Shown: piece after piece, positions 9,790 to 53,602 of the stretch
Layout of the letters: every line of letters starts with the position of its first letter
Numbering within the stretch: the first letter of the stretch is position 1
From: Brevundimonas sp.
GTDB lineage: Bacteria; Pseudomonadota; Alphaproteobacteria; Caulobacterales; Caulobacteraceae
DNA: 53,853 nucleotides
Assembly (NCBI RefSeq): GCF_004210735.1
Contig: NZ_SDZL01000014.1
Coordinates: 1 to 53,853 of the forward strand
Direction of reading: 5' to 3'
The notes under the pieces: model-generated
The model's input: the letters and a program-made list of their open reading frames with translations, nothing else
The model's database searches: none
Told to the model about the DNA's origin: nothing
Translations under genes and position numbers: made by a program

Positions 9790-10457
9790 TCCGTTCTGTC
9801 CTGAAAGGCGGCGTCGTGGCCGGCGCCGCCCTGTCACTCGGCGCCTGCGCCCTGCTGTCCACGCCTGATCCGGTGCAGATGTATCGCTTCGGGGCGCAGA
9901 TGGACGCCCCGGCCCCGGCGGGCGACACGCCAGCGCCGCTGCTGGTGTCGATCCGCCGGATCGAGTTCCCTGACGCGTCCAAGGACGCCCGCATTCTGGG
10001 CGTGACGGGGACGGAAACCGCCTACATCGGCGGCGCGCGCTGGGTGTCGCCGGCCGAGACCCTGTTCGACGACAGCCTGAACGCCGCCTTCGCCGCGCGA
10101 CCGGATCAGGTGCGGGTGCTGGACCGGCGCGAGCCCGGCACAACGCCGCTGGTGTTGCGGGTGACGGTGTCCAGCTTCGAGGCGCGCTATCTGGACGGCA
10201 AGGACGCGGCGCCGACGGTGGTGATCACCGCCCGGGCGCAGCTGCGCAACACGCCGGAACGCGAGCGCGGCGCCGGCCCGATCCGCCCCGAGGACGGCCG
10301 CACGGTCGAGCGGGTGTTCAGCGTCACCCAACCGGCGGGTGAGAACCGCGTCTCGGCCATCGTTCAGGCGTTCGACGTCGCCACGCGCGACATCAACACC
10401 CGGATCGTGGACTGGAGCATCAGCTCGGCCCCGACCCCGCTGGCCGCCGCGCGATAG
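9786..10457 (+). CDS. ABC-type transport auxiliary lipoprotein
   Basis: A 223-residue exported lipoprotein. The signal sequence ends in the lipobox LSLGAC. The body fits the PqiC/DUF330-like auxiliary lipoprotein family that accompanies MCE systems, probably as an outer-membrane-facing partner of the MlaD-type ring. It starts with GTG overlapping the mlaD stop, so it is coupled to the operon. Confidence 0.82.
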   Translation: MIRSVLKGGVVAGAALSLGACALLSTPDPVQMYRFGAQMDAPAPAGDTPAPLLVSIRRIEFPDASKDARILGVTGTETAYIGGARWVSPAETLFDDSLNAAFAARPDQVRVLDRREPGTTPLVLRVTVSSFEARYLDGKDAAPTVVITARAQLRNTPERERGAGPIRPEDGRTVERVFSVTQPAGENRVSAIVQAFDVATRDINTRIVDWSISSAPTPLAAAR

Positions 10458-10470
10458 GGACCGGCGCGCG

Positions 10471-11109
10471 ATGATCCTGATCGGCCAGTACGATTCACCG
10501 TTCGTGCGCCGCGTCGGGATCGCTGCGGCCCTGTACGGCGTCGCGTTTCAGAACCAGCCGTGGTCGACGTTCGGCGAGGGCGACAGGATCGCCGCCTACA
10601 ATCCTACGCGGCGCGTGCCGGCCCTGGTGCTGGACGACGGCGCCGTGGTGGTCGACAGCGCCTGTTGCCTGGACTGGCTGGACGACCAGCAGCGGGCGGC
10701 GGGCGATGAGGCGCTGATCCCCGCCTCAGGCGTGGCCCGGCGCGAGATCCTGTATCGCACCGCATTGGCCACCGGCCTGTCCGACAAGATCGTGGCCCTG
10801 TTCTACGAAAAGGCGCTGCACGAGGTCCGGTCGCAGGTCTGGCTGGACCGCTGCCGCGCCCAGATCCACGCCAGCCTGACGGCGCTGGAGGCCCTGCGCG
10901 CCACGGCGACCGACGACTGGCTGATGGGCGACGCCCTGACCCACGCCGACATCGCCCTGGGCTGCGCCTTGCAACACGCCCGCGAGTCCAGCCCCGACGA
11001 GATCGACCTGACCGCCTGGCCCGCGCTGTCCGCCCACAATGAGCGCTGCGAGGCGCTGGCCCCGTTCCGCGCGATCTACAAACCCTTCACCGGCCCGGCC
11101 GACAGCTGA
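10471..11109 (+). CDS. Glutathione S-transferase family protein
   Basis: A 212-residue protein with an N-terminal thioredoxin-like GST domain (MILIGQYDSPFVRRVGIAA, then NPTRRVPALVLDDG and DSACCLDWLD) and an all-helical C-terminal domain. Substrate unknown. The frame is open upstream to 10339 inside the lipoprotein gene, but the ATG at 10471 sits at the conserved start of the fold. It lies 13 bp after the Mla-type operon and may be co-transcribed, though a link to lipid transport is not established. Confidence 0.85.
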   Translation: MILIGQYDSPFVRRVGIAAALYGVAFQNQPWSTFGEGDRIAAYNPTRRVPALVLDDGAVVVDSACCLDWLDDQQRAAGDEALIPASGVARREILYRTALATGLSDKIVALFYEKALHEVRSQVWLDRCRAQIHASLTALEALRATATDDWLMGDALTHADIALGCALQHARESSPDEIDLTAWPALSAHNERCEALAPFRAIYKPFTGPADS

Positions 11110-11196
11110 CGCCGCGCGGCGGATTACCGCGATTTAAGTGCTCGCGTCCGCAAACCTGACCTAGTCCTTGGCGGACACAAGGTCGGGGAGGGTGGC

Positions 11197-12450
11197 ATGA
11201 CGGCTGTGACAGCGGATGCGGAGACGGCGCCGGCGCAATCGATCGGCAAGCCCAAGGTGCGCGTTCAGACGCTGGATGTGATCCGGGGTCTGGCGATCCT
11301 GGGCATACTGGCGGTGAACGCCGACGGGTTCGCCCAGCCGATGTTCGGGGCCTTGTATCCCCTGACCTGGCCCTTCCCGAACGAGGGCGCCACGGCGATC
11401 TCCTATTGGGTGATGGACGCCTTCTTCCACCACAAATTCGTGGCGCTGTTCTCCATGCTGTTCGGCGTGTCGCTATTCCTGGTGGGCGGCGAGCGGACGG
11501 ACAAGGGCAAGGGCCGTGTGCTGTGGCGGCGGCTGGCGGTGCTGCTGGTGCTGGGCCTGATGCACGGGTTCGGCCTGTGGTGGGGCGATATCCTGGCGCT
11601 CTATGCCGTCACGGGCATGGTGATGCTGTTCTTCCGCTCGTTCGGGCCCAGGACGCTGCTGGTGATGGGCGCGGCGCTTTATGTCCTTATGGCGACAAAC
11701 GGGATGGACCCGGCGGTCCTGCCCAATGCCTCGCCCGAGGCGCGAGCCGAGGCGACCGTGGCCCTGATCCGCCCGCAAGAACAGATCGACGGCCTGCGGG
11801 CCATGGCGGCGGCGGAGACGGCCGAGGCCAAGTCGTCGTGGGCCGGCGCCTACCGGGTCAATACCGAGGCGTATCTGCGGCTGCTGTCCGGCAACCCGTT
11901 CCTGATCCCCCCGACGCTGGCGCTGATGATGATCGGCCTGTCGCTGTTCAAGTCGGGCTTCCTGGCGGGGCGTTCGCGTTCGTGGGTGTACGGCGCCGTG
12001 ATCGTCGTGGGGGCCGCCGGGCTGGGCTTGCAGGCCTGGCTGTCGTGGCAGGAGCATGTCTTGGGCGCGCCGGTGCTGGGCGGGCGACTGGCCGAGACGC
12101 TGATCTCGCCGATCATCGCCCTGGCCTACGCCAGCGTGCTGATCCTGATGATCAAGGCGGGCATGGCGATGCGGCCGCTGGCGGCGGCGGGGCGGATGGC
12201 CTTCACCAACTATCTGACCCAGTCGCTGATCATGACCGGCATCTTCTATGGCGGACGCGGCAGCCTGATGGGCGAGGTCGATCGACCCGCGCTGTGGGGC
12301 ATCGTGCTGGCCGTGTGGGCCCTGCAACTGACCTGGTCGCCGCTGTGGCTGTCGAGGTTCGAGATGGGGCCGTTTGAATGGATCTGGCGCTGCCTGACGC
12401 ACGGACGCTGGGTGCCGCTGGTGAAGCGAGAAGGGGCGCTGGCTGTTTAA
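11197..12450 (+). CDS. DUF418 / YeiB-like multi-pass membrane protein
   Basis: A 417-residue inner-membrane protein. The N-terminal stretch VQTLDVIRGLAILGILAVNA is the hallmark of the DUF418/YeiB family, and about ten hydrophobic segments follow. The C-terminal DUF418 part (GRMAFTNYLTQSLI and beyond) is present. Function is unknown; the fold is related to acyltransferase-3-type membrane proteins. A GGGAGG ribosome site precedes the ATG. Confidence 0.85.
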   Translation: MTAVTADAETAPAQSIGKPKVRVQTLDVIRGLAILGILAVNADGFAQPMFGALYPLTWPFPNEGATAISYWVMDAFFHHKFVALFSMLFGVSLFLVGGERTDKGKGRVLWRRLAVLLVLGLMHGFGLWWGDILALYAVTGMVMLFFRSFGPRTLLVMGAALYVLMATNGMDPAVLPNASPEARAEATVALIRPQEQIDGLRAMAAAETAEAKSSWAGAYRVNTEAYLRLLSGNPFLIPPTLALMMIGLSLFKSGFLAGRSRSWVYGAVIVVGAAGLGLQAWLSWQEHVLGAPVLGGRLAETLISPIIALAYASVLILMIKAGMAMRPLAAAGRMAFTNYLTQSLIMTGIFYGGRGSLMGEVDRPALWGIVLAVWALQLTWSPLWLSRFEMGPFEWIWRCLTHGRWVPLVKREGALAV

Positions 12451-22034: not shown

Positions 22035-22718
22035 TCACGCCGTGAAGTTCGGTCCGCAGCAGTTGGCGAAGGTCTGCTGCGAGCGACAGAAGCACATGTC
22101 CCCGCTGGCGCAGGCGCCGGCCAGCTCAAGGATCAGTGCGGCTCTGGCCGCGCTACGCTGTTCGCCAGCTCGGTGCCATCGCTCGCCATGCTTCTTGAGG
22201 TATTCGCCCGTGGTTCGGTCTAAATAATTGTAGTCTTCATAGGCGGCGCGATAGGCCTGCGCCGCTAGCGACGAGGTCATCCAGTGGGTCATCGTCGGTT
22301 TCGCGTCGGCCAAGACGTCATTGACATCGAAGAGCGCGTCTTGGTCTTCGATGAAGGTGACCGACGCCACCTGGAGGGGAGGCGGGGTGATGTCGACCAG
22401 GGCTCCATCCGTGGAGCGCCAGACCGCGTGGTGGATCGCCTCGATGTTGACGCCAGGCCAGGTCCACAGCGCCCAACCAAATACGATACCTCCCTGGGAC
22501 GCCTCGAGATGATTTGAGACATTGTGGAAGCAACAGAGGGGCTTGGCCCAAGGGCTGGGTGCCACCGGAACGCCCACGGCGAGACGACCCGGTAGCGCTG
22601 GGAACTCCGGATAGGACCGGCCTGGATCAGCGGCCGTGGTATAGATTTTGCCGGTCGCGGCGGGGGTCAGGCGAAGGGGCATCTTGATCCCGAAGGGCGT
22701 GGGGTGCCCGCCGCGCAC
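22035..22718 (-). CDS. Hypothetical protein with C-terminal SEC-C-like motif
   Basis: A protein of up to 227 residues. The C-terminus CFCRSQQTFANCCG matches the Cys spacing of SEC-C zinc motifs (CxC...CC). The main part contains Trp/Tyr-rich segments and no known domain. The GTG at 22718 lies 48 bp after the YwgA-like gene; an in-frame ATG at 22682 is an alternative start. It is probably the fourth gene of the minus-strand run from 26132. Confidence 0.6.
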   Translation of the reverse strand: MRGGHPTPFGIKMPLRLTPAATGKIYTTAADPGRSYPEFPALPGRLAVGVPVAPSPWAKPLCCFHNVSNHLEASQGGIVFGWALWTWPGVNIEAIHHAVWRSTDGALVDITPPPLQVASVTFIEDQDALFDVNDVLADAKPTMTHWMTSSLAAQAYRAAYEDYNYLDRTTGEYLKKHGERWHRAGEQRSAARAALILELAGACASGDMCFCRSQQTFANCCGPNFTA

Positions 22719-22766
22719 CCAAGGTGGCCACGGGGGTAGCCGATGCCGCCAGAGGGCTGGTAGGCC

Positions 22767-23270
22767 TCAGAGGGCCGGGAGCGGAATCGGGGTCTGGATG
22801 GCCCTGAGCCTGTTCCAAAGTGCCTTCGCAAGGGCCAACCGCTCTGCGGTCGCCTTCTGCGGCTTGCGCCGTTGGGTCTCCTCCCACCAATCGGGAATGC
22901 CCGATCCCTTGAGGAAAGCCGCCGTCGCGGCGAGTTCCAATGTCACTGGATCGCTATCACAGGCCGTCGTGACCAGCCTTCTGGACCGTTCATCCACGGG
23001 ACCTTGGTAGGGCGTGGTGAAGATCGAGAAGGTGCCACCCCATTGGGCCACGACCTCATCCTCGATGATCAACTGGTCCAGGACAGCGTCCTTGGTCGCC
23101 GAGGCCACATCCTCGGAATAAGGCCCGTAGAAATGGTAGGTGTAGGAGAAGTCAGGGCTGAGACCAGCGATCTTGAGGATATAGGCCGTTTTCTGCAAAC
23201 GGGTCTTACCCACCAGCCGGCCGCCGGCGGCGGCGATCACGTCCCGGACGGCGTTCTCATAATCGGTCAT
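22767..23270 (-). CDS. YwgA-like protein
   Basis: A 167-residue protein. The N-terminal pattern RLVGKTRLQKTAYILKIAGL and YTYHFYGPYSEDV resembles YwgA and the SocA/Panacea-type fold found in several toxin-antitoxin and phage-related proteins. Its ATG overlaps the stop of the HD hydrolase by 4 bp. In Bacillus subtilis ywgA also neighbours an HD hydrolase gene (ywfO), so the pair appears functionally conserved. It may regulate or partner the hydrolase. Confidence 0.65.
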   Translation of the reverse strand: MTDYENAVRDVIAAAGGRLVGKTRLQKTAYILKIAGLSPDFSYTYHFYGPYSEDVASATKDAVLDQLIIEDEVVAQWGGTFSIFTTPYQGPVDERSRRLVTTACDSDPVTLELAATAAFLKGSGIPDWWEETQRRKPQKATAERLALAKALWNRLRAIQTPIPLPAL

Positions 23271-24658
23271 GTGCGTGCCTCGTCTATCAATTCTTGCACT
23301 AGGGTCTTGGCCGCGTCGTCATCGGGAGACACGTACATCCGGTATCCATGGAAAGGCTGCATCGCCCTGACGACATCGGACACTGCGGCGAGATCCGTGG
23401 GAACATCATTCGCCAGGATGTGGATGCGTTCAATGCCGCCCTTCGTCGTCTCATAGCCACGCCGCTTGTATGGACTCCGCTCAAACTTATCGATCAGGAT
23501 TCGGTGAACCAAAGATTGATCGTTGCCTACCTTCTCGTTCCAGAGGCGCTTGAACTTGAGCATCCTCTGTTCGATCTCCACTCCTGCATCCACCCGACCA
23601 TTTCCCAGGGCGCTTCGGACGTCGATCGCCTTGCAGAGCGTGCGGGTCCGCAGCCTTTGCGCCGATTCGGCGATGATCGGGTCGGTAGACTGGGCCAGCT
23701 GGGCCAACGAACCCCACACGACAGAATCGTCCAGGTCTGCGTAGTTCGCGATCGCGCTGCCATCGCGGATGAACCGGACCAGCGGGTGGGTTGCGCTCAG
23801 CCCCGTCTGATCGACCCCGCCTTCCTCGATCCTCGACTTCAAACCACGTAGCAGCAAGGAGAAGACCTTCTCCGCACCTCGCGTCGTCTTGTGGAAATAG
23901 ACGGCTGGATAGAGGTGGAACAGCGACAGGACATAGCTCTCCCCTGCCCACAACGCCTTGGGTCCCAGCACGAAGGTGGAGACCTCGGCGAACTGCTGGT
24001 CGTCAGAACCGATCTCGATCTTGCGGACCTCCAGGTTCCGGACCAACCAAGTGAAGTCGATCCCCCCGAGTTGTGTCCCGCTCATCATCCGGTCACGGCG
24101 CATGTAGTCGAGCCGGTCGGCATCAAACTGGCTCGATACGACCGACGAATAGACGTCCGGTGATGTCTCGCTGGTGAATACCGAAGCAACTTCCTCCCCG
24201 AAGCCGGCCCTGTAGCTGTTGAGTCTCTCGTAGACCGCGGTCTCTCGGATGAACCGCAAGGTCCATTCCTCGTGCTTGGCCACCCGGCCGAGCGCGTCCT
24301 CGAACGCATGGCTGAAAGGCCCGTGTCCCAGGTCATGGATGAGCGCCGCGGCGATCGCCACGTCCGCCCGATCGGAATTGAATTCTAGGCCAAGCTTCTC
24401 CTTCAGCACCGCGCACAACAGCCTGGCCGTATGGAAGACCCCGACGCTGTGCGCGAACCGTGAATGGGTCGCGCCCGGGAACACGAAATCCGAGAAGCCC
24501 AGCTGCCTTATGCGACGCAACCGCTGGAACTCCGACGTCTCCAACAGGCTCCAGATCATCCGCTCGAAAGGCGAATCGGCGAACTCGATCAAGTCGTGGA
24601 CCGGGTCTCTCAGGCGTTGAAACATTTCGATCCGATTCGCGTCCTGCGGGTGGTTCAC
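23267..24658 (-). CDS. HD-domain phosphohydrolase (COG1078, dNTPase-like)
   Basis: A 463-residue protein of the dGTPase/SAMHD1-like HD superfamily. It begins DPVHDLIEF and has metal ligands H65 and H70 (THSRFAH), H108-D109 (IHDLGHG), H117 and D184 (DADRLDYMRRD). Members such as the E. faecalis enzyme EF1143 hydrolyse dNTPs; others are uncharacterised. It overlaps the YwgA-like gene and follows the radical SAM gene after about 100 bp. In an island beside a thymidylate kinase it may control or degrade dNTPs. Confidence 0.85.
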   Translation of the reverse strand: MNHPQDANRIEMFQRLRDPVHDLIEFADSPFERMIWSLLETSEFQRLRRIRQLGFSDFVFPGATHSRFAHSVGVFHTARLLCAVLKEKLGLEFNSDRADVAIAAALIHDLGHGPFSHAFEDALGRVAKHEEWTLRFIRETAVYERLNSYRAGFGEEVASVFTSETSPDVYSSVVSSQFDADRLDYMRRDRMMSGTQLGGIDFTWLVRNLEVRKIEIGSDDQQFAEVSTFVLGPKALWAGESYVLSLFHLYPAVYFHKTTRGAEKVFSLLLRGLKSRIEEGGVDQTGLSATHPLVRFIRDGSAIANYADLDDSVVWGSLAQLAQSTDPIIAESAQRLRTRTLCKAIDVRSALGNGRVDAGVEIEQRMLKFKRLWNEKVGNDQSLVHRILIDKFERSPYKRRGYETTKGGIERIHILANDVPTDLAAVSDVVRAMQPFHGYRMYVSPDDDAAKTLVQELIDEART

Positions 24659-24758
24659 GATAGCTCATCTCTCGCCTCTTGGTAGCAGCGAAGTTCGGCG
24701 CCGGGATCGCCTGTCGTTCATGCTTTGTTCTAATCCCGCAACTCAAGGTCCGCAAGGC

Positions 24759-26132
24759 TCAATCGGTCCGAAAGGGGAGGCTCTCCTTGGCGGACACGTA
24801 TATATCCGCGTCATAAGCCTGACGATCGTAACCCCGCGGATAATAGGAGAACGCCTTCAGTTCGAAGTAGGCGTCGGCATCCATGTATCGGCGCGAGAGG
24901 CCAAGGCTGATGTCCTCCGCGGCCTCTGCCCCGATCGTGGCGCTGGGATGGATCCGCGTGATGCCCGTCCGGCCCGCGCTATCCGGGTCGACGACCCGTG
25001 CACCGAGGGCCTCCAGGTCCGCCACGAACGTCCCCGTCGTCGAGGGCGGGCCGAAGGCCACGACCGGTCCTACCGACACCCCCTTGATGGCATCAGCATG
25101 ATCGTCTAGCCAGGCTTGTGTCTCGGCGATCGTCTCCATTGTCTCGCCGGCGTAGAGCAGGACGTTTGCCTTCACCCAGACGCCGTTCGCCTGACAGGCC
25201 CTCAGCAGTTCGGATGCGGACCGGAGGTACCTGACCGGGTCCTTGGCTTTGCGCATCGCGAGGACCTGGCTCGGCGACGCACTCTCCAGGCCAAGGTCAA
25301 TCACCTTCAGTCCTGCAGCAGCCAGATGCCCGATCGTCTCGGGCTTCATCGCGTCGACCCGTGTCTCACAGCGCCACGGCGTCACGACGCCGCGAGCTGC
25401 GACCTCTTCGGCCAGACGCGCTGCCCAGCGTGGATTCGGGAGGAAAAAGGACGACTGGAGGTACGGATGGATCTCCCCGCCGCCGTATTGGGCCCTGGTT
25501 TCGGCGAGCAGGTCGGCAAGCCGTGCCGGATGACGAAGTGGCGACAATGGGATGTCCCTTTCCTCACAGAATGCGCACCCCATGCCGCAGCCCCTGGACG
25601 TCTCGATGCTGGGCTGGAATGTCAGGAAGTCCTCCACAAGCCTGTGGTCCAAACCTATATCGGGCATGGCCGGGAGGAGCGCCGTCGGGGCGGGCGCCCC
25701 GACAAGGCCGCCGATCACGGCCTCACCGAGACCTGGGACGATGACATCAGCTTCGGGCACCAACCCGTGCAGCCAAGCAGGGTCCGGGCCGGTCACCCAT
25801 CTTCCGCCAATGACCAACCGTGATCGCGGATAGCGCGCGCGCAAGATGCGCGCGAACCCCTGCGTCCAGGACAGGGCGTAGAAGCTCGGCATGGACAGCA
25901 TCACCGGATATCGTGATGGAAGCAGGCCTAGCCCTTCCAATCGATCGACTAGGTCCTCCGGCTCGTCATGCGCGCCGTGGAATAGGATTGCGGGCGTTCC
26001 AGCTGCCGAAAGCTGGGTCGCGAGCGTAAGTGCGCCGTAGTTGAGGTACTGCTGGCGACGCGCCAGCGCGTGGTCTCGCTTCTTGGGCGCGAGCATTCCC
26101 GCCGAGACGAACACGACGCTTTGGGGTTGCAT
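24759..26132 (-). CDS. B12-binding-type radical SAM protein
   Basis: A 457-residue protein. The N-terminal half (VVFVSAG to about residue 160) looks like a cobalamin-binding-type Rossmann domain (LVIGGRWVTG and VPGLGE). A radical SAM core follows with C182-x3-C186-x2-C189 (SRGCGMGCAFCEE). The C-terminal part has GLESASPSQV and LLYAGET, typical of the class. Substrate unknown. The frame extends to 26411 over the divergent thymidylate kinase gene; the ATG at 26132 avoids that overlap and matches the domain start. Confidence 0.78.
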   Translation of the reverse strand: MQPQSVVFVSAGMLAPKKRDHALARRQQYLNYGALTLATQLSAAGTPAILFHGAHDEPEDLVDRLEGLGLLPSRYPVMLSMPSFYALSWTQGFARILRARYPRSRLVIGGRWVTGPDPAWLHGLVPEADVIVPGLGEAVIGGLVGAPAPTALLPAMPDIGLDHRLVEDFLTFQPSIETSRGCGMGCAFCEERDIPLSPLRHPARLADLLAETRAQYGGGEIHPYLQSSFFLPNPRWAARLAEEVAARGVVTPWRCETRVDAMKPETIGHLAAAGLKVIDLGLESASPSQVLAMRKAKDPVRYLRSASELLRACQANGVWVKANVLLYAGETMETIAETQAWLDDHADAIKGVSVGPVVAFGPPSTTGTFVADLEALGARVVDPDSAGRTGITRIHPSATIGAEAAEDISLGLSRRYMDADAYFELKAFSYYPRGYDRQAYDADIYVSAKESLPFRTD

Positions 26133-26186
26133 GGGCTGTGTAACCGGGGAACTGTTGCGTTTGACAACCTCAAGTAAGGACACTCC

Positions 26187-26807
26187 GTGCCATTTGTAAG
26201 CTTCGAAGGCATCGATGGATGCGGGAAGACCACCCAGTTGGATCGCCTCGCCAGTCGGCTGGAGGGGGAGGGTAAGATCGTGCTCCGCACCAAGGAGCCA
26301 GGGGGTGGGGCCTTGGGTGGCGTCGTGCGGGCGATCTTCACGCGCAAGGACGCACCGCCGATGTCGCATATGGAGCAGATGCTTCTCGTCAATGCCGCCC
26401 GGTTCGACCATGTCCGCTCGGTGATCATACCGGCCTTGGCCGATGGAGCCTGGGTCCTGACGGATCGGTTCTACGATTCCACCTTCGCCTTACAGGTGTT
26501 CGAGACTGACGTCCCAACAGCCCTCTTCGAGATGCTCCGCGACGCCGTGGTCGGCGAGGTCCGACCAGACCTGACGTTCGTCCTGGACCTGCCAGCTGTG
26601 AGTGCCCACGAACGCCGAGGCGGCCGACCGTCGGATGATCCCCTCGAGCAGCACCGGGATTTCGAGCGCATTCGCCGGGGGTTCCGTGCTGCCGCGGCCA
26701 GCGACCCGGCGCGGTGCAGGCTGATCGACGCCAGTGGTTCAGAGGAAGTGGTCGGAGCGGCGATACACCGCGAGCTTTGGACGCGGTTCTCGGACGGCCG
26801 GGGATGA
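26187..26807 (+). CDS. Accessory thymidylate kinase-like protein
   Basis: A 206-residue nucleoside monophosphate kinase of the dTMP kinase family: P-loop FEGIDGCGKTT (8-16), KEPGGG, LTDRFYDSTFA and a lid-like segment (HERRGGRPSDD). It starts with GTG after AAGGA, 54 bp from the divergent radical SAM gene. The Cys in the P-loop and location in an island suggest it is not the housekeeping tmk but an accessory copy, possibly phosphorylating a modified nucleotide. Confidence 0.85.
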   Translation: MPFVSFEGIDGCGKTTQLDRLASRLEGEGKIVLRTKEPGGGALGGVVRAIFTRKDAPPMSHMEQMLLVNAARFDHVRSVIIPALADGAWVLTDRFYDSTFALQVFETDVPTALFEMLRDAVVGEVRPDLTFVLDLPAVSAHERRGGRPSDDPLEQHRDFERIRRGFRAAAASDPARCRLIDASGSEEVVGAAIHRELWTRFSDGRG

Positions 26808-26985: not shown

Positions 26986-27294
26986 TTAGGCGGCCGGCCG
27001 TGATACCTCCAGCAAGCGCCAGCTGGGCACGTGGGCGGTCATCAGAGCTTTAAATAACCGGCCATGGTTCGGCACACGCAAGTGAAGAAGTTCATGCGCG
27101 ATGACGAAATCCTGAAAGCTTTCCGGTTGGTCGAGAAGATCGAACGCGAGTGTAATGGTACCCATTCTAGAGCATGAACCCCACTTGCGTCTCATCGGCT
27201 GGATTCGGATAAGACGAGGGTTGACCCTAAGTGTGATTGCCCATCGGGCGACCCGCTGCTTGAGCGCATCTTGTTCTGATAAATATTTCGCCAT
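26986..27294 (-). CDS. Mini YgjP-like (M48/DUF45) metallopeptidase-domain protein
   Basis: A 102-residue protein with the DUF45/YgjP zinc motif HELLH (67-71) and a third ligand in PNHG (His78). The preceding MRRKWGSCS signature is also typical. Full-length YgjP proteins are about 230 residues; this short form lacks the N-terminal half. It lies 7 bp after hsdR on the same strand. DUF45 peptidases are often encoded with type I restriction systems; their role there is unknown. Confidence 0.8.
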
Positions 27295-27301
27295 AATAAA
27301 G

Positions 27302-30235
27302 TTATTGGCTCAGTACGTTGACGATAATGAGATCCACAAGGTGAGCGCGGGCTTCGTTTGGAAGGCTGATCAGGGGTCGATATAGCGAGGCGCGAAGCTG
27401 CCGCTGTTCGTCAGGGTTGACCTGCGCGTTCGGGAACCGCGCCAAAAGCTTTTCGATCTCCTTGGCGAGTTCGAGCGCATCTAACCCACTTTTCTTCATC
27501 GCCGGGTTGTCTTGAAGCGCCCAGAATGCAGCGAACGCCTTTGGAGTAAGCCCGGTATCTTTCGCGGCCTGTGAAGCCGCGTCTTTCTCCACCGCGAGCG
27601 CGGCGAGTAGATCCATCGCAGCAAGTCCGGTGGTGTTCCGGTTCTCCAAGTCTTTGAGGATACGTTCGGCACGATCCTTAAGCGGCTGGAGCACTGGCGC
27701 GGCGTCGGCGCTTTCGTCGATCTCCTTCTGCAAGCCGCGGACAAGATTGAACACTTTGCCTTCGTCAGAGCCTTTGTCTAAACGAAGGGTTTCAAGCGTT
27801 TTGACATCAAAGGTGACGCTTTTGGTCAAAAGGCCGAGGCCGTCCTGCGTGGCGTTCTGTTCGACGAGCTGGCGCGTTTTGTAGGCAAGATCCGCCACAA
27901 ACCCGATCTTGTCAGCATAGGCATTACGCACCGTGGCGTAGAGCTGCGCCAGCCGCTTGAAGGTGCCGATGTGGTCGACGAGCTCTTTGGACGGCGACAG
28001 GATTTCCCAGAGATTTTCGATATCCTTGTAAGCCTCGAAGAACGCCTTTCGCGGTTCTGGCTGTAGGAATCGACCATAGACGAGACGTTCGAGCCGTTCG
28101 TCAGCGTCACCCCCTTCGCCGGCATCGAGATAATCGACCGAAGCCTTCGCGATCTTTTCGAGAAAGTCCTTCATCAGGAGATCGAGATCCTCGATCACCC
28201 CATCAACATCCGAAGAGTCGAACTGCAAGGCCTTCTTAAGTTCGCGCAACACGCCGACAAAATCGATGACCAAGCCGACCTGCTTGCGAATGCCTTCCTT
28301 GTCGACGTACGGCCTGTTCACACGGGCGACCGCTTGAAGCAGGACGTGATCTCGCATCGGCTTGTCGAGGTACAGGCAATAGAGCAGCGGAGCGTCGTAG
28401 CCGGTGAGCAGCTTGTCTGTAACAATCAGGATTTTTGGTTCCTTGTCGGCCTTCTTGAACAGAAGGCGGACATCTTCTTCGCGTTCATCACTCAGTTGCA
28501 GTTGGGCGACCAGCGGTCGATCTACGACGTCGGCCGCGTTCTCGGTATATACGGCCTCGGTCCATTCCGGCGGCAACAGCTTGTCGAGCGCCTGTTTGTA
28601 TTTGGCGCAGGCCTCGCGATCGACCGCGACCACAAACGCCTTGTAGCCGAGCGGCAACACGTTTTCTCTGAAGTGTTCGGCTACAAACGCCGCTACCTTT
28701 GCGACGCGATCGTCCGCTTTCAGGAAGGCGCGCAGACCCACCGCCCGGTCCAGAACCTTGTTCAGCTCATCGATATCCGTCACGCCTTCAGCGGCGGCGA
28801 GTTCGAAGAATTCTTTGTCTAGCCGGTCAACGGGCACCGTCATCTCGCTTGGTGCCAGGACATGCTTGATCGGCAGAGTGGTTTCGTCGGCGATCGATTC
28901 CTTGATGGAATATTTGTCGAGGAAGCCGGCCTCGTCTTCGGTACCGAAAATCTTGAACGTGCCGGTGCCCTGTTCGGTATTGGCTATCGGCGTGCCCGTG
29001 AAGCCGATGATAGTGGCGTTCGGCACCGACGCCATGAGATAGGTGCCGAGATCCTTTGCGACTGACCGGTGCGCTTCATCGATGAACACATAAATGTTGT
29101 CGCGGATGGATGAATCCTTTCGGATCGCCTCGAACTTATGGATCATCGCGATGATCAGGCCGCGAAAGTCCGCGTCGAGAAGCTGCTGAAGCTCCGCCTT
29201 GGTGTTCGCCCGCTTGATGGCGATATCCTGGTTCTGCATCTCGCCGAGCACGCGCTCGACCCAGCCCTTCAACTGGCCTTCAAGCTCTGTTCGATCGACG
29301 ACAAGGATCACCGTCCCGCTCTGGAAGCGCTCCTTCTGTTCGAGGATCAGCTTCGCGGCCGTGAGCAGCGTGAATGTCTTGCCGGAGCCTTGTGTGTGCC
29401 AGACGAGGCCGCGGTTCTTGGTGGGATCGGCACAGCGAGCGACGATCGCGTCGATGGCACGACGCTGGTGCTGGCGCAGGATCGACTTCCGCGTTTCGCC
29501 ATCCTGCACATAGAACAGAATCCAGTGCTGAACCGTGCGCAAGAAATCCGTGCGCTCGAAGAACGCCTGCACAGCGAAGCGATAGGCCTCGTCCGGCGTC
29601 TGCTTCCAGCGCGCCATGTCGCGGCGAGTGGCGTTCCAAGTAACGCCATACCAATAGTCGAGCAGGTGCGTGACGTTGAAGATCTGCGGTGCGCCGATCA
29701 GTTCCGGCGTCTCGATCTCATAGCGGCGCAGTTGCTTGATGCCGCGCTCGATGGCGTCGCCGTCCTTCGGGTTCTTGTGTTCGACGATGCAGACCGGCAC
29801 GCCGTTGATGAGAAACATCACGTCCGCCCTGTTGCCCTTGCGGGCAGGCGGCTTCAGCGTCCATTCCCATGAGACGTGAAACTCGTTCGCGTCTGGATTT
29901 CCGAAATCGATCAGCTGAACGCGGCGATGGCGCTTTTCGGCTTCGTCGTACCAGCCGCGTTCGCCACGCAGCCACATCAGCATTTCGCGGTTGCCATCGA
30001 CCGTGGCCGGGATTGCGTCGAGCGTCTCAATGATCGAGCGCAGCGCCTCGGCCGAAAGCCAGGGATTGAACTCCGACAGCTTCGCTTCGAGTTCGTCGCG
30101 CAGCAGCATGCCCGCTTCGCCGCCGCGCTTCTGCTTGGCGACTTCGGGGGTGAGTGGTGTCCAGCCGATTTCGACGGCGTGCTTCACCATCGGAAACTGA
30201 ACGGTGCCGGCTTCGCTGATCTTGAGGTCGCTCAT
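27302..30235 (-). CDS. hsdR: Type I restriction enzyme R subunit
   Basis: A 977-residue motor/nuclease subunit. It has a PD-(D/E)xK-type nuclease region near residue 150 (VCIVEHKNP), Walker A ([10 protein letters not shown], about 280), DEAH box (FIDEAHRS, about 385) and GFTGTPI, then a helical C-terminal domain. It translocates DNA and cuts when the MS complex meets unmodified sites. Its ATG overlaps the hsdS stop. Full length and intact. Confidence 0.93.
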
Positions 30236-31536
30236 GCGGCAACTCCTTCGAGCGAGGCCTTGCCGAGCGCCGAGAGATCGAGATCGGCCACGCGGATTTC
30301 GCCGGTCATCAGCTTGTGCAACAGGGCTTTGAAGAGGTTTTCAAGGAGCGCGCGTTTGCGCTTGTGCAGGTCGATCTTACGGTCGAGCGCATTGAGGATT
30401 TCAACGATTTCATCCGCTTCGGTCGGATCGGACGGGCACGGGACTCTGAACGTCTCGATGTCGTCGAGGTTCAGCGTCATTGTGCCGTGAGCCGAGGGCA
30501 CAATCCGAGAAAGCAGGCGGTCCTTGGCGCAGTGGATCGCGGAGCGAATGTAAGTGCCTGAGAACTCACCGCGAGAGACGAGGGCCTTCAAATCCTGATT
30601 GAACGCCATTGGGCGTGAAATCACCGCTACCGGCAGATCCTTCGCCAGGCCCATGCCACGAACTAGGATAAGCACAGCGTCCGTAGGCGCGATGCGACTT
30701 CCAGCTTCTGCTCCCTCTCGGCTCACATGATCGATGGTGTCATGCAGAGTTGGGACTTTCAGGTCTTTACCCGAAGCCCAGGGGATTTCACCGATCCAGT
30801 AGTCGGCGACGGACTTTCGCGGCGTTCCACCGCTCTGAATTTCGCAAAGATCAACAATTGGCCGAGCTTGCCAGTTCTCCGGCATGGTGCCGATTTCGGT
30901 TTCCTTCTGTGGCTCCCCGCGTAGCCCTCGCGCGAATAACTCTCGCATCGCCGCGCGCTTGAGCTTCCAGGATGCCCGCTCGCAATGGGCTTCCAGAGCC
31001 GATGCCCGCTGAATTGCTTCAAGGGCATCTGCGATTGCGAGCTGATCTTTCGGGTCAATCGCCGGGATGGGCAAATCAAGCAATACGTTTTCAGGCACAC
31101 GTTTGCGGCCGGTTGATCCTTCCATCCGTTCCGTAACGTAGTGACGGACATCAGGGTGAAGCAAATAGAAGAACAGAAGTCGCGGGTCGTGTTGATCGGA
31201 GCGCGGATGAAGAGGGATCACTTCTGTCGTTGCGTATCCAAACGGGGCGGCCAGTTCTTGCACCAGAGCCTGCTTCCCGTTTTCGAACGACGGCGTAATC
31301 TTTCCAACGAGCACGTCTCCGCGCTCGAAGTAAGTACCGCTCGCAATCTCATCAGGGGCCTTCATCGTGAAGGCAGGCAAATAGCTGCCATCCTGCGGAA
31401 TGGCTTCCATTGCTGCGAACGGAATTATCGGAAAAGTCGCCCGGCCAAGTCCACGCTGCTTCTTCGTCACTTCATAGCCGTCGCCGACACGAGACCAATG
31501 CCGATCCCCGCCAAGTTGCGTATCAAGCAGGCTCAT
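30232..31536 (-). CDS. hsdS: Type I restriction-modification specificity subunit
   Basis: A 434-residue protein with two target-recognition domains joined by conserved helices ([15 protein letters not shown] and the second [20 protein letters not shown]). The second half opens with QSGGTPRKS and WASGKDLK, standard for HsdS. It sets the DNA sequence methylated and restricted. It overlaps hsdM by 14 bp and hsdR by 4 bp. Confidence 0.9.
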
Positions 31537-33358
31537 CGATCAGCCCCGCAAGCAGCTTGGAGATTGTTACCGAAAGGCGATGCGTTTCTTTGTCGAGTTC
31601 GCTCAGTTCACGGACAAGCGCACTGACCGATCCGACCTCAGTGGAGCTGGACTGCCCAACCCATCGGCTCGGGCTTAGATTGTAGTCGGCCCCTTCGGCC
31701 TGTTGACGTGTGATGACAGCAATCTCCGCCTCGACAGGCTCGCCTTTGAGATATGCAGCTGCGAGCGGACGGATGGCCTCCTCAGGCATGTAGTTTTTTG
31801 GCTTGCCTTTCTTTAGCCGCTTGCTGGCGTTCAGCAGGACAATCTTGTCCTTGCGCGTTGCAGGCTTGCGTTTGTTCAGCACCACGATCACGCCGGCGGC
31901 GTTGGTGTTGTAGAAGAGGTTATCCGGTAGCAGGATCACGCCGTCGATCAGATCGTGATCGACGAACCATTTTCGGATGTTGCGCTCCTTGTCCTCATTC
32001 TTCGACCCAGAGCCGCGCGTGACCGCGCCGGTATCGAGAACCACCGCCGCGCGGCCGTGATCGTTGAGGCAGGCAAGGGTGTGCTGAAGCCAGGCCCAGT
32101 CGCCCTTGCCGGTGGTCACGCCGCCGGTGGTGCGGAAGCGATCGAACGGATCGTTGGAAAACACATCCGGCGCGAAGGGCTGGTTCCACATCGGATTGGC
32201 GACGACGATATCGTGGCCGCGCACCTTGCCCTCGTTGGTGCGGAATTTCGGGTTGATCATCGTATCGCCGCGCGCGATCTCGATCTCCATGTCGTGGATG
32301 ATGCCGTTCATCTGCGCGACGGCGTAGCTCTCGGCCTGAAGTTCTTGACCGGTGAGCTTCAAAGGCACCTTGGCGGTAGGATCAAGTTCGCGGGCCACGA
32401 GTTGCAGCTTCACCAACAGCCCGGCCGATCCGCAGGCATAGTCATGGCAATCCTCGCCGGGACGGGGCCGCATGATATGCGCCATCAGGAAACCGACTTC
32501 CGTCGGGGTGAAGAACTCGCCCGCGCTCTGGCCCGAGCCTTCCGCGAACTTCCTCAGCAGATACTCATAGGCGCGCCCGAGGAAGTCAGGCTGCACATCG
32601 GCTAAGCCCAGCCTATAGCGCGGATCTGAAAACGTCTCGACCACGAGGCGGAGCTTCGCCGGGTTGATATCGCGCTCGCCATTCCGCTCGGCGGCGAAGT
32701 CCACCACATCGATCACGCCGGACAGCATGGGGTTTTGCTTGACCACCGCGCGCACTGCCTTGGTTAGGTGCTCGCCGATGTCCCTAGGCTTCGTGCTCTG
32801 CCCCTTGTCGTCCAGTGGCCACTCGATGGCTTCGCGCCCGCTGATTGCGCCCCATCGCGCTTCCGGCGGCATATAGAAACGCAGGAGCGAGTGATCGCCC
32901 TCGGCGATGTCGAGTGCCGTACCGCGATCGCCGTAGTCCTCCGCAAGGCGCGCGATTTCATCGTCAAAGACATCCGACAGCCGCTTCAAAAACAAGAGTG
33001 GAAGGAGATAGTCCTTGAATTTGGCGGCGTCCTTCTCCCCGCGGATCGAGCAGGCGGCGTCCCAAAGCATCTGCTCCATCGGTTTTGTAGACTGCGAAGG
33101 CCGCGCCGCGCGCCTTCGGCCTGCCACGCCGGCTGCGGCATCGCGTTCATCGATCCCATCCTCCACGGCAACATTAGCCTCAAGCGCCAGCGCTGTGATT
33201 GCCGCGCGCGCTGCTGCCTGCGGCTTGTTTGCGCCACCCTCCCACCGGTTGACCGTCGCGAAAGACACGCCAAGACGATCCGCGAGCTGCTCTTGGGTCA
33301 AATCCAGCTTCGAACGGATTGCGCGCATCACGGCTGAGAAATTTGCTATGTTTGTCAT
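31523..33358 (-). CDS. hsdM: Type I modification methyltransferase with N-terminal XRE HTH
   Basis: A 611-residue N6-adenine methyltransferase. About residues 1-65 form a Cro/C1-type helix-turn-helix ([21 protein letters not shown]). The HsdM core follows with the SAM motif [10 protein letters not shown] (about 305) and catalytic [10 protein letters not shown] (about 388, NPMW in place of the usual NPPF). The HTH fusion suggests the subunit also represses its own operon. It is the first gene of the M-S-R order, and an inverted repeat overlaps its start codon. Confidence 0.92.
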
Positions 33359-33691: not shown

Positions 33692-35392
33692 GTGGCCAAA
33701 GCCGAAGCGACTGTTGAAGAACTCGTCGGGATGGTCGAACGGGGCGAACTTCGTCTCCCGGAGATGCAGCGGCAGTACGTGTGGAGATCGCCTCGCGTGC
33801 GCGATCTGATGGACTCCCTGTATCGAGGCTATCCGTCCGGGGCGATCCTGCTTTGGGAAACCAATGAGGCTGTGCCGTTGCAGGACATGGCGGTCGCCCA
33901 GGCCGCCAACCCCTATGCGGCGACGCGCCTACTTCTGGACGGCCAGCAACGGCTGACATCGCTTTCGGCCGTCATACGAGGTCAGCCTGTCAAGGTCAGA
34001 GGGCGGGTCAAGCCGGTCGAACTGCTGTTCAACCTTGAACATCCTGAACGCCAGGAGATCGTCACCGAGGTGAACGAAGACGCAGACGACGAAGCCACCG
34101 AGATCGACGAAGCCGATTCCACGGACGACGAGCTGCAGAGGCGCTTTGAGCGCATGACTTTCGTAGTCGCCACCAACAAGCTGGCGGCGCTGCCTCAGTG
34201 GGTGAAGGTATCCGAGGTCTTTCAAGGAGAAAGCGATACCGCCTTCCTCAGGAGGGCGGGCATCACCAGTTTTGACGACCCACGCTATGAGAAATACACC
34301 CACCGGCTCGCCAAGCTGCGGCGCGTACGCAAATACGTCTACCGTATGGATGTTCTCGAACGGACCCTGTCCTACGAGGAGGTCACCGAAATATTTGTGC
34401 GGGTAAACTCGCTCGGCGCAAAACTGCGCAGCTCAGACCTTGCCTTGGCCCAGATCACCGCGCGGTGGCGGCACTCTCTGGAGATCTTCCAAAAGTTTCA
34501 GGCCGACTGCGGCAAGCTCGGCTTCGACCTCGATCTCGGGGTTCACCTGAAAACCTTGATCGCGTTTGCGACCGGACAGTCCCGCTTCCTTACCGTGTCG
34601 AGCCTTTCGCTTGAGCAGCTGCAGACCGGCTGGGCCGAAGCGACGGAGGGCATGCGGTTCGCCATCAACTTCCTGAAGAGCAACGTCGGCATCGATAGCC
34701 CCGCTCTTTTGTCGTCCCCATTCCTGATGATCGTGGTCGCTTACTATGGTCACGCGACGGGCTATATCCTGTCGCCCGCAGAGTCGGACCGGTTGCGCCA
34801 ATGGGCGCTTCTGGCCAACACCAAGGGCCGCTTCTCGCGCGGCTCCAGTGAAACCCTGCTGGACCAGGATCTAGCGACGATTGATCGAGGAGAAGGAGCC
34901 GAAGCTCTCATTGACCGCGTCCGATTGCAGTTCGGTCGGCTGAGCGTAACGGCCGATGACCTTGAGGGGCGCGACCAACGAAGCTCGCTGTTCAAGACGA
35001 TGTTCCTAGCCTTCCGCGCCGGGGGAGCGAAGGACTGGACCTCGAACCTGCAAATATCGCTCGACCATTCCGGTGCACAGCACAAGCTGCAGTTCCACCA
35101 CTTCTTCCCTAAGGCCCTGCTCACGAAAAGCGGCGTCACCTCCCGCGAGGCCGACGACATCGCGAACCTGACCTTCATAAGTGGACGGACCAACCGAAAG
35201 ATCAGCGATAAAGCGCCGGCAATCTATCTGTCGGAAATCATCGAGCGCCAAGGGCCAGACGTTCTTGGGCTTCAAGCCATCCCGAATGAGCCAGCGCTCC
35301 TGGACCTTCCCAAGTATTCCGACTTTCTCGCCGAAAGACGGAAGCTTCTAGCAATTCGATTGAATGAATTTCTCGGCGTGACCCCCGAATAA
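33692..35392 (+). CDS. DUF262 and HNH (DUF1524-like) domain protein
   Basis: A 566-residue protein with an N-terminal DUF262 ParB-like nucleotide-hydrolysing domain (LRLPEMQRQYVW, YPSGAILLW, and DGQQR at about 82-86). It ends in an HNH-type nuclease domain (HHFFPKALL at about 469, then IANLTFISGRTNRKI). This is the architecture of GmrSD/SspE-like type IV restriction proteins that cut modified or foreign DNA. It starts with GTG after AGGGA. Its place beside the type I system supports a defence role. Confidence 0.85.
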   Translation: MAKAEATVEELVGMVERGELRLPEMQRQYVWRSPRVRDLMDSLYRGYPSGAILLWETNEAVPLQDMAVAQAANPYAATRLLLDGQQRLTSLSAVIRGQPVKVRGRVKPVELLFNLEHPERQEIVTEVNEDADDEATEIDEADSTDDELQRRFERMTFVVATNKLAALPQWVKVSEVFQGESDTAFLRRAGITSFDDPRYEKYTHRLAKLRRVRKYVYRMDVLERTLSYEEVTEIFVRVNSLGAKLRSSDLALAQITARWRHSLEIFQKFQADCGKLGFDLDLGVHLKTLIAFATGQSRFLTVSSLSLEQLQTGWAEATEGMRFAINFLKSNVGIDSPALLSSPFLMIVVAYYGHATGYILSPAESDRLRQWALLANTKGRFSRGSSETLLDQDLATIDRGEGAEALIDRVRLQFGRLSVTADDLEGRDQRSSLFKTMFLAFRAGGAKDWTSNLQISLDHSGAQHKLQFHHFFPKALLTKSGVTSREADDIANLTFISGRTNRKISDKAPAIYLSEIIERQGPDVLGLQAIPNEPALLDLPKYSDFLAERRKLLAIRLNEFLGVTPE

Positions 35393-52381: not shown

Positions 52382-53602
52382 ATGTCGCACTACGACGTGA
52401 TCGAAGGTCCGGAGCACGTGCCGATCAAGGCATGGACCCGGGGAGTGCCCATCGAGGATGCCGCGCTCAAGCAGCTGAAGAACGTCGCCTCACTGCCGTT
52501 CATCCACAAGCACGTAGCGGTGATGCCGGACGTGCACTGGGGCATGGGCGCGACGGTGGGCTCGGTGATCCCGACCGTGGGAGCCATTATCCCGGCCGCC
52601 GTGGGCGTGGACATCGGCTGCGGCATGATGGCCGTGCGGACCTCCATCCGCGCCGAGCACTTGCCGGACGACCTGTCGGCCATCCGCTCCGCCATTGAGG
52701 CGGCGGTGCCGCACGGGCGCACCGACAACGGCGGCCGCAACGACAAGGGCGCCTGGGCGTCCGAGCCGCCTACCTCGGCCCATTCCCGTTGGGAGGTGCT
52801 GAAGGCCGGATACGACGCCGTCGTGGATAAGCACCCCAAGGCGGCGCACGCGCGCGGCTATGGCCACCTGGGCACGCTCGGCACAGGCAACCACTTCATC
52901 GAGCTGTGCCTCGACGAAGCGGGCGACGTGTGGGTGATGCTGCACTCCGGCTCTCGCGGCGTGGGCAACCGGTTTGGGACCTACTTCATCGAACGGGCCA
53001 AGCACGAGATGCGCCGCTGGCACATCAACCTGCCGGACCAGGACCTGGCCTACTTCCCCGAGGGGACCGAAGGCTTCGTCGATTATGTCCGGGCGGTGTC
53101 GTGGGCGCAGAAATACGCCCGCGCCAACCGCGAGGTGATGATGGATCAGGTCCTGGGGGTGCTGCGCGCCTTCTGGCCCGACTTCGAGACCACAGCTGAG
53201 GCGGTGAACTGCCACCACAACTACGTCACGAAGGAAAAGCACTTCGGCAAGGACGTCTACCTGACCCGCAAGGGCGCGGTGTCGGCCAAGGACGGAGAGC
53301 TGGGCATCATCCCCGGCTCGATGGGGGCCAAGTCCTTCATCGTACGCGGCAAGGGCAATGCGGACTCTTTCTGCACCTGCTCGCACGGCGCCGGTCGGGC
53401 CATGAGCCGCACCGAGGCCAAGCGGCGCTTCACGGTGGAGGACCACGTCCGCGCCACCGAAGGCGTCGAATGCCGCAAGGACGCCGAGGTGATCGACGAA
53501 ACGCCGATGGCCTACAAAGATATCGACGCGGTTATCGCGGCCCAGATCGATCTGATCGAGGTGGTTCACACACTGCGTCAGGTAGTGTGCGTGAAGGGAT
53601 GA
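52382..53602 (+). CDS. rtcB: RNA-splicing ligase RtcB
   Basis: A 406-residue protein, close to E. coli RtcB (408). It carries the metal and guanylylation residues: VDIGCGM (Cys about 80), GTGNHF, HSGSRGVG, CHHNYV and the GMP-linked His in CSHGAGR (about 335). RtcB joins 2',3'-cyclic phosphate or 3'-phosphate RNA ends to 5'-OH ends, repairing cleaved tRNA or rRNA. GAGGAG precedes the ATG. No archease, RtcA or RtcR gene lies beside it in the window. Confidence 0.95.
   Translation: MSHYDVIEGPEHVPIKAWTRGVPIEDAALKQLKNVASLPFIHKHVAVMPDVHWGMGATVGSVIPTVGAIIPAAVGVDIGCGMMAVRTSIRAEHLPDDLSAIRSAIEAAVPHGRTDNGGRNDKGAWASEPPTSAHSRWEVLKAGYDAVVDKHPKAAHARGYGHLGTLGTGNHFIELCLDEAGDVWVMLHSGSRGVGNRFGTYFIERAKHEMRRWHINLPDQDLAYFPEGTEGFVDYVRAVSWAQKYARANREVMMDQVLGVLRAFWPDFETTAEAVNCHHNYVTKEKHFGKDVYLTRKGAVSAKDGELGIIPGSMGAKSFIVRGKGNADSFCTCSHGAGRAMSRTEAKRRFTVEDHVRATEGVECRKDAEVIDETPMAYKDIDAVIAAQIDLIEVVHTLRQVVCVKG

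Follow-up and report, generated by a model that had tools for sequence, protein, structure and literature searches.

A stretch of 53,853 nucleotides of contig NZ_SDZL01000014.1 of Brevundimonas sp. (assembly GCF_004210735.1), the whole of which is called the window here, carries a radical S-adenosylmethionine (SAM) gene that stands head-to-head with a gene for a thymidylate-kinase-family (TMK) enzyme, and this divergent radical SAM-TMK pair is a recurring unit. Five computed observations describe it: the pairing itself, a separate clade of the linked kinases, the predicted fold of the radical SAM protein, the exchange of a third gene beside the pair, and a defence setting. We tentatively propose, at just short of an even chance, that the pair is a two-gene immune module making an antiviral modified nucleotide, with an HD-type or STAND-type third gene completing the response. 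A sequence-only reading had joined the pair with genes for an HD phosphohydrolase, a YwgA-like protein and a SEC-C motif protein into one nucleotide-enzyme cluster. All five open reading frames are present, with the coordinates, strands and overlaps of Table 1; the full set of five occurred in no other locus fetched, one locus (L003) having four of the genes and no match to SEC-C. What does recur, in unrelated genera and on plasmids, is the radical SAM-TMK grouping.

The radical SAM-TMK pair recurs

A head-to-head TMK gene accompanies the radical SAM gene in 19 of the 20 intact loci whose radical SAM protein is more than 50% identical to that of the window, the window included. These 20 comprise 14 loci from a one-genome-per-species scan, four plasmids, one locus of genome G785 and the window. 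The scan gave 17 loci, of which 14 were intact and above 50% identity, and all 14 had the TMK head-to-head; the plasmid records, of Sphingomonas, Rhizobium, Burkholderia and Pseudomonas, show the identical arrangement with tmk annotated. Plasmid loci were examined in five of 12 records (H1-H3, H5 and H6), leaving out a second Burkholderia glumae plasmid (H4) and records with 33-47% coverage (H7-H12). Omitted from the 20 were L015, whose radical SAM gene is split into two overlapping pieces, L018, whose contig begins inside that gene, and L019, at 26% identity; neither L015 nor L019 showed a TMK. A Nostoc locus (L024, 28% identity) also lies outside the set. The twentieth locus, that of G785, has a radical SAM protein 58% identical to that of the window and no TMK; upstream of it, in the same direction, lies a PPK2-family polyphosphate kinase gene (PF03976, 350 bits), possibly a replacement nucleotide kinase.

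Measured to the nearest in-frame ATG or GTG, the start-to-start gap of the pair is 39-55 bp in 18 related loci, against 54 bp in the window. Two separate promoters would hardly fit into so short a gap; they may overlap or sit inside the opposite gene. The radical SAM gene is rare: with its own genome counted, it turned up in 1 of 150 relatives. At class level 2 of 385 genomes had it and at phylum level 3 of 398, with weak hits to the radical SAM core for two of these three. Its rarity and scatter, together with the plasmid copies, point to horizontal transfer. Searches of open-licence PMC papers listed no title or abstract beginning that describes a radical SAM-TMK defence system, a result that does not extend to the literature as a whole.

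The linked kinases form a clade of their own

The window TMK matched PF02223 at 129.8 bits and TIGR00041 at 130.2 bits (cut-off 83.25), with its P-loop and DR motif intact. The host genome (G000; 2,826,095 bases in 165 contigs) encodes a second TMK at C148:42256-42840 (167 bits), so the window gene is an extra thymidylate kinase, as had been supposed, and not the sole tmk. When the 19 linked TMKs are placed in a tree with 30 housekeeping TMKs, the host's own and 29 drawn from further genomes in the class, they form one separate clade with a Shimodaira-Hasegawa-like approximate likelihood ratio support of 100.

Two motifs tell the groups apart at every sequence. At the REP motif, lysine precedes EP in 19/19 linked TMKs versus arginine in 30/30 controls; at the AYQ motif, phenylalanine, leucine or isoleucine precedes glutamine in 19/19 (leucine in the window) versus tyrosine in 30/30. 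The linked TMKs retain an AAR motif as well as the P-loop and DR motif. The window protein reads TKEPGGG where the other 18 read TKEPDGG. Tyr103 and Arg74 of mycobacterial TMK have roles in the nucleotide pocket, and we take the AYQ tyrosine to sit close to the sugar's 2' side and the AAR arginine to read thymine. Retention of the latter with replacement of the former would suit a kinase that recognises the pyrimidine as before while its substrate carries a different sugar.

The radical SAM protein and related systems

The radical SAM domain of the window protein matched PF04055 at 43.5 bits (cut-off 29.5). Its frame is open to 26411, and alignment with 55 relatives indicates a start codon at 26132 or near it. 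The predicted fold is nearest to AprD4, MgmA and OxsB: residues 2-457 align with the AprD4/OxsB-like two-domain fold, and the layout of class 1 cobalamin-dependent radical SAM enzymes, an N-terminal Rossmann domain followed by a radical SAM domain with CX3CX2C, is present. Cobalamin binding is putative, since the B12-binding domain PF02310 reached 17.3 bits, under its cut-off of 32.1; precomputed annotation places PF02310 on 21 of the 120 radical SAM relatives listed. AprD4, the top fold match, is not known to need cobalamin.

Prokaryotic viperins, which make ddhNTPs, resemble the window system in their radical SAM core, their defence setting and the chain-terminating product expected, and a nucleotide kinase is sometimes encoded near them. 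No viperin family model in Pfam, NCBIfam or PADLOC matched the window protein at E <= 0.01, and the N-terminal Rossmann domain is present; viperin identity was rejected on these grounds. The fold comparison thus bears out the view of the sequence-only reading that the protein is set apart from viperin by its cobalamin-type N-terminal domain, which we describe as of cobalamin/AprD4 type.

OxsB/OxsA and AlsB likewise combine a radical SAM with a Rossmann domain, and theirs acts on a deoxynucleotide. According to the available part of PMC13331322, OxsB works with an HD phosphohydrolase and makes oxetanocin A, described as antiviral; that part of the source mentions no dedicated TMK for the oxetanocin system. 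OxsB differs from the window protein in its length (~730 aa) and an additional N-terminal domain. When the PDB was searched by sequence, OxsB was absent from the matches listed for the radical SAM protein, and OxsA from those for the HD protein.

PADLOC PDC-M51 also joins a radical SAM protein with a TMK-like kinase. In one full-scoring member, in genome G362, the genes are in tandem with a 1-bp overlap, whereas the window pair is divergent. The window proteins scored 16.2 and 36.6 bits with PDC-M51A and PDC-M51B, whereas the radical SAM protein of G362 reached 567, and the two sets of proteins are 23-24% identical over parts. Both models are unspecific at low scores: PDC-M51A matches 108 of 349 genomes at 1e-10 (with no match in G000 at that threshold), and PDC-M51B has matches in 13 of 14 control genomes and scores the host housekeeping TMK above the window TMK (46 versus 32 bits). 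Membership in PDC-M51 was rejected for its low scores and for the difference in gene order. A third form lies on Nostoc plasmid pNLP1 (L024:9354-11458), where a distant radical SAM gene (28%) has an AAA_17-type kinase gene directly before it, the set lying within DpdE/DrmD-, DrmMI- and DruE-like genes; this kinase matches part of the PADLOC dCTPase model at 43 bits. Radical SAM-kinase pairs thus come in three forms, of which the Nostoc AAA_17 type and the PDC-M51 tandem were met once each.

We give about an even chance to the product of the radical SAM enzyme being a nucleotide. The enzyme might instead act on a tRNA, a protein, a lipid or, as AprD4 does, a sugar, with the kinase only supplying deoxythymidine triphosphate or a dTDP-sugar donor. 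We regard this as quite unlikely: no glycosyltransferase or dTDP-sugar family was found among the ten window proteins scanned against Pfam, related radical SAM genes come with kinases from other families, and HD partners of the type that hydrolyses deoxynucleoside triphosphates (dNTPs) stand beside the pair. If the product is a nucleotide, bacteria would have in this pair a second radical SAM route, besides viperin, to nucleotide analogues that act against viruses, one that has an activating kinase of its own.

The third gene beside the pair is exchanged

Across the 19 pair loci the third gene encodes a nuclease-STAND-tetratricopeptide repeat (TPR) protein in 11, an HD protein of the type we take to be COG1078 in six (window included), and an HD protein annotated as dGTPase, from a second HD family, in one (L021, in the same position); in one locus it was unseen. 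The contigs of L004 and L007 stop just past the TMK gene, so any STAND gene there would be out of view; the STAND protein P0173 is listed for Duganella Leaf126, the strain of L007, on another contig. The nuclease-STAND-TPR proteins have a nuclease-like N-terminus (Avs4-like and restriction-nuclease-like), an ATPase region with GIGGIGKS and, in the members scanned, TPRs. In this architecture they resemble Avs-type STAND nucleases; the window has no such gene. PADLOC matched neither of the two members scanned.

A constant core with alternative partners, some of them with this architecture, is what one would expect if the pair made a modified nucleotide that is not a polymerase poison but a signal switching on the STAND nuclease or the HD enzyme, as in CBASS or Thoeris with swapped effectors. 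We consider such signalling very unlikely. Avs-type STAND proteins sense phage proteins (a PDB entry, by its title, has Avs4 in complex with a phage portal), which makes a small-molecule signal unnecessary; the window HD protein matched only HD-family domains in Pfam, with no sensor; and the radical SAM tree allows the partner swap to be a single event. The exchange makes the question of poison or signal directly testable.

The window HD protein matched PF01966 (40.8 bits) and HD_assoc_2 (25.7 bits), and its top PDB match was 2o6i (181 bits), which we take to be EF1143, followed by SAMHD1 chains. EF1143 has dNTPase activity. By its motifs and the 2o6i match the window protein is an EF1143-type HD phosphohydrolase, with dNTP hydrolysis putative. 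In both respects it is like the EF1143, SAMHD1 and dGTPase enzymes; it is unlike them in its linkage to a YwgA-like gene and the radical SAM-TMK pair, and in that its activity is predicted.

The YwgA-like protein had no Pfam match (E 0.01) and matched DarG models weakly and in part (20 and 24 bits). Several of its relatives are named YwgA and one is named for a SocA-like Panacea domain, and PMC8832971 describes Panacea as a promiscuous antitoxin domain, so YwgA may restrain the HD enzyme. By eye, the C-terminal part of a DarG-like macro-domain protein at L096:15673-16776, in the G785 locus record, also resembles the window YwgA.

The idea that the HD and YwgA genes are a fixed part of the cluster did not hold up. 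The HD-YwgA pair was found without the radical SAM gene in G003, of the same genus (62% and 53% identity; no radical SAM match in that genome), and within an 18-kb stretch of G159 (44% and 43% identity), where its neighbours include such ordinary chromosomal genes as uvrB and one for a fatty acid hydroxylase; of the 29 HD loci L027-L055, only these two had YwgA. One may thus suppose that the five genes are chance neighbours in a defence island, with radical SAM-TMK as one system, HD-YwgA as a separate and perhaps toxin-antitoxin-like one and SEC-C as a third, and with the window HD having no role in the radical SAM chemistry. The free pairs speak for this, as do the place of the window HD as sister to the G003 HD (support 99), the opposite orientation of HD-YwgA to the adjoining radical SAM gene in L003, and the relatives of the radical SAM and YwgA proteins, which have the window contig alone in common among the matches listed (118 of 120 YwgA entries compared). 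Against it, the window and L003 are sisters in the radical SAM tree (93/91) and both have HD-YwgA beside the pair; the six pair-linked COG1078-type HDs and the two free HD-YwgA HDs are split from 27 other HDs by a 100% branch (long branches flagged); and the second HD family takes the same position in L021. On balance we find chance neighbourhood unlikely. The pair-linked label requires three changes on the HD tree, two of them forced, with the same caution on long branches, and from the grouping either the free pairs lost the link to the radical SAM pair or the linked ones gained it. We read HD-YwgA as a module of its own that stands beside radical SAM-TMK in the window and may or may not take part in its function.

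The SEC-C gene is probably outside the module: PF02810 matched exactly at its cut-off (20.4 bits), and tblastn gave no match to the protein in the other loci examined, leaving it to the window only.

Defence setting and proposed mechanism

The restriction genes expected beside the cluster were found with Pfam and PADLOC: the window pair neighbours the type I genes hsdR, hsdS and hsdM and a GmrSD-type, HEC-05-like gene. Elsewhere, 20 neighbouring proteins from 14 loci were compared with PADLOC at 1e-5; the choice went by protein size and location, and for two of them followed a Pfam scan, so the sample is not random. Thirteen had matches and seven had none. Strong matches were to KwaB (391 bits, L005), type IIG restriction (1469 bits, L006), LmuB and LmuA (401 and 149 bits, L008) and MkoA (150 bits, L010); some were weak (25 bits in L013, for example), and two of the 13 were merely TniQ of Tn7-like elements (L004, L011). 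Excluding TniQ, 8 of the 14 loci have a defence match, which upholds a defence-like context within this non-random choice of neighbours.

In the immune module that we propose, the radical SAM enzyme would most likely remove a hydrogen atom from a nucleotide's sugar and rearrange or deoxygenate it, with chemistry like that of viperin, OxsB or AprD4. The TMK, having retained its catalytic motifs while altering residues that presumably line the nucleotide pocket, would phosphorylate this product, or a precursor of it, on the way to the active diphosphate or triphosphate that phage polymerases misuse. An HD partner of dNTPase type may lower the competing dNTPs or remove surplus product; in the window it comes as an HD-YwgA unit, possibly restrained by YwgA, and in the 11 other loci the nuclease-STAND-TPR protein stands beside the pair in its place. 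A more specific version, a novel kind of nucleotide-based immunity in which the two enzymes, the radical SAM one with its cobalamin-type domain and the TMK dedicated to it, jointly produce a hitherto unknown sugar-altered thymidine-type nucleotide that both poisons phage DNA synthesis and licenses the exchangeable effector (STAND nuclease or HD dNTPase), appears improbable to us as a whole. For a role in DNA modification, also suggested earlier, nothing found speaks.

Features of the window and related loci

Table 1. Position of the genes discussed, in window coordinates unless a locus is named
Feature	Position	Strand	Remarks
Radical SAM enzyme	24759..26132	-	457 aa; CX3CX2C = C182/C186/C189; N-terminal Rossmann domain, cobalamin/AprD4 type
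TMK enzyme	26187..26807	+	GTG start; 206 aa; dedicated clade
Intergenic region, radical SAM/TMK	26133..26186	.	54 bp; divergent
HD phosphohydrolase	23267..24658	-	463 aa; motifs HSRFAH, HDLGH, FDADRLD
YwgA-like protein	22767..23270	-	167 aa; 4-bp overlap with HD gene
SEC-C motif protein	22035..22718	-	227 aa
Short YgjP-like metallopeptidase-domain protein	26986..27294	-	between TMK and hsdR; context only
Type I restriction genes hsdR, hsdS, hsdM	27302..33358	-	context only
hsdR	27302-30235	-	restriction locus member
hsdS	30232-31536	-	restriction locus member
hsdM	31523-33358	-	restriction locus member
GmrSD-type gene	33692..35392	+	PADLOC HEC-05 match, 158 bits; context only
RtcB RNA ligase gene	52382-53602		right edge of window; outside defence island and glucan locus
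G785 radical SAM + PPK2 locus	L096:8955-9866 and 10033-11406		same direction
Nuclease-STAND-TPR gene beside pair, example	L008:6567-9269		~900 aa

Beyond the defence genes, a glucan-use locus begins past 35.7 kb. The YgjP-like protein holds just the C-terminal portion of its domain. HsdM has an N-terminal helix-turn-helix domain, which suggests that the type I restriction system may be self-regulated.

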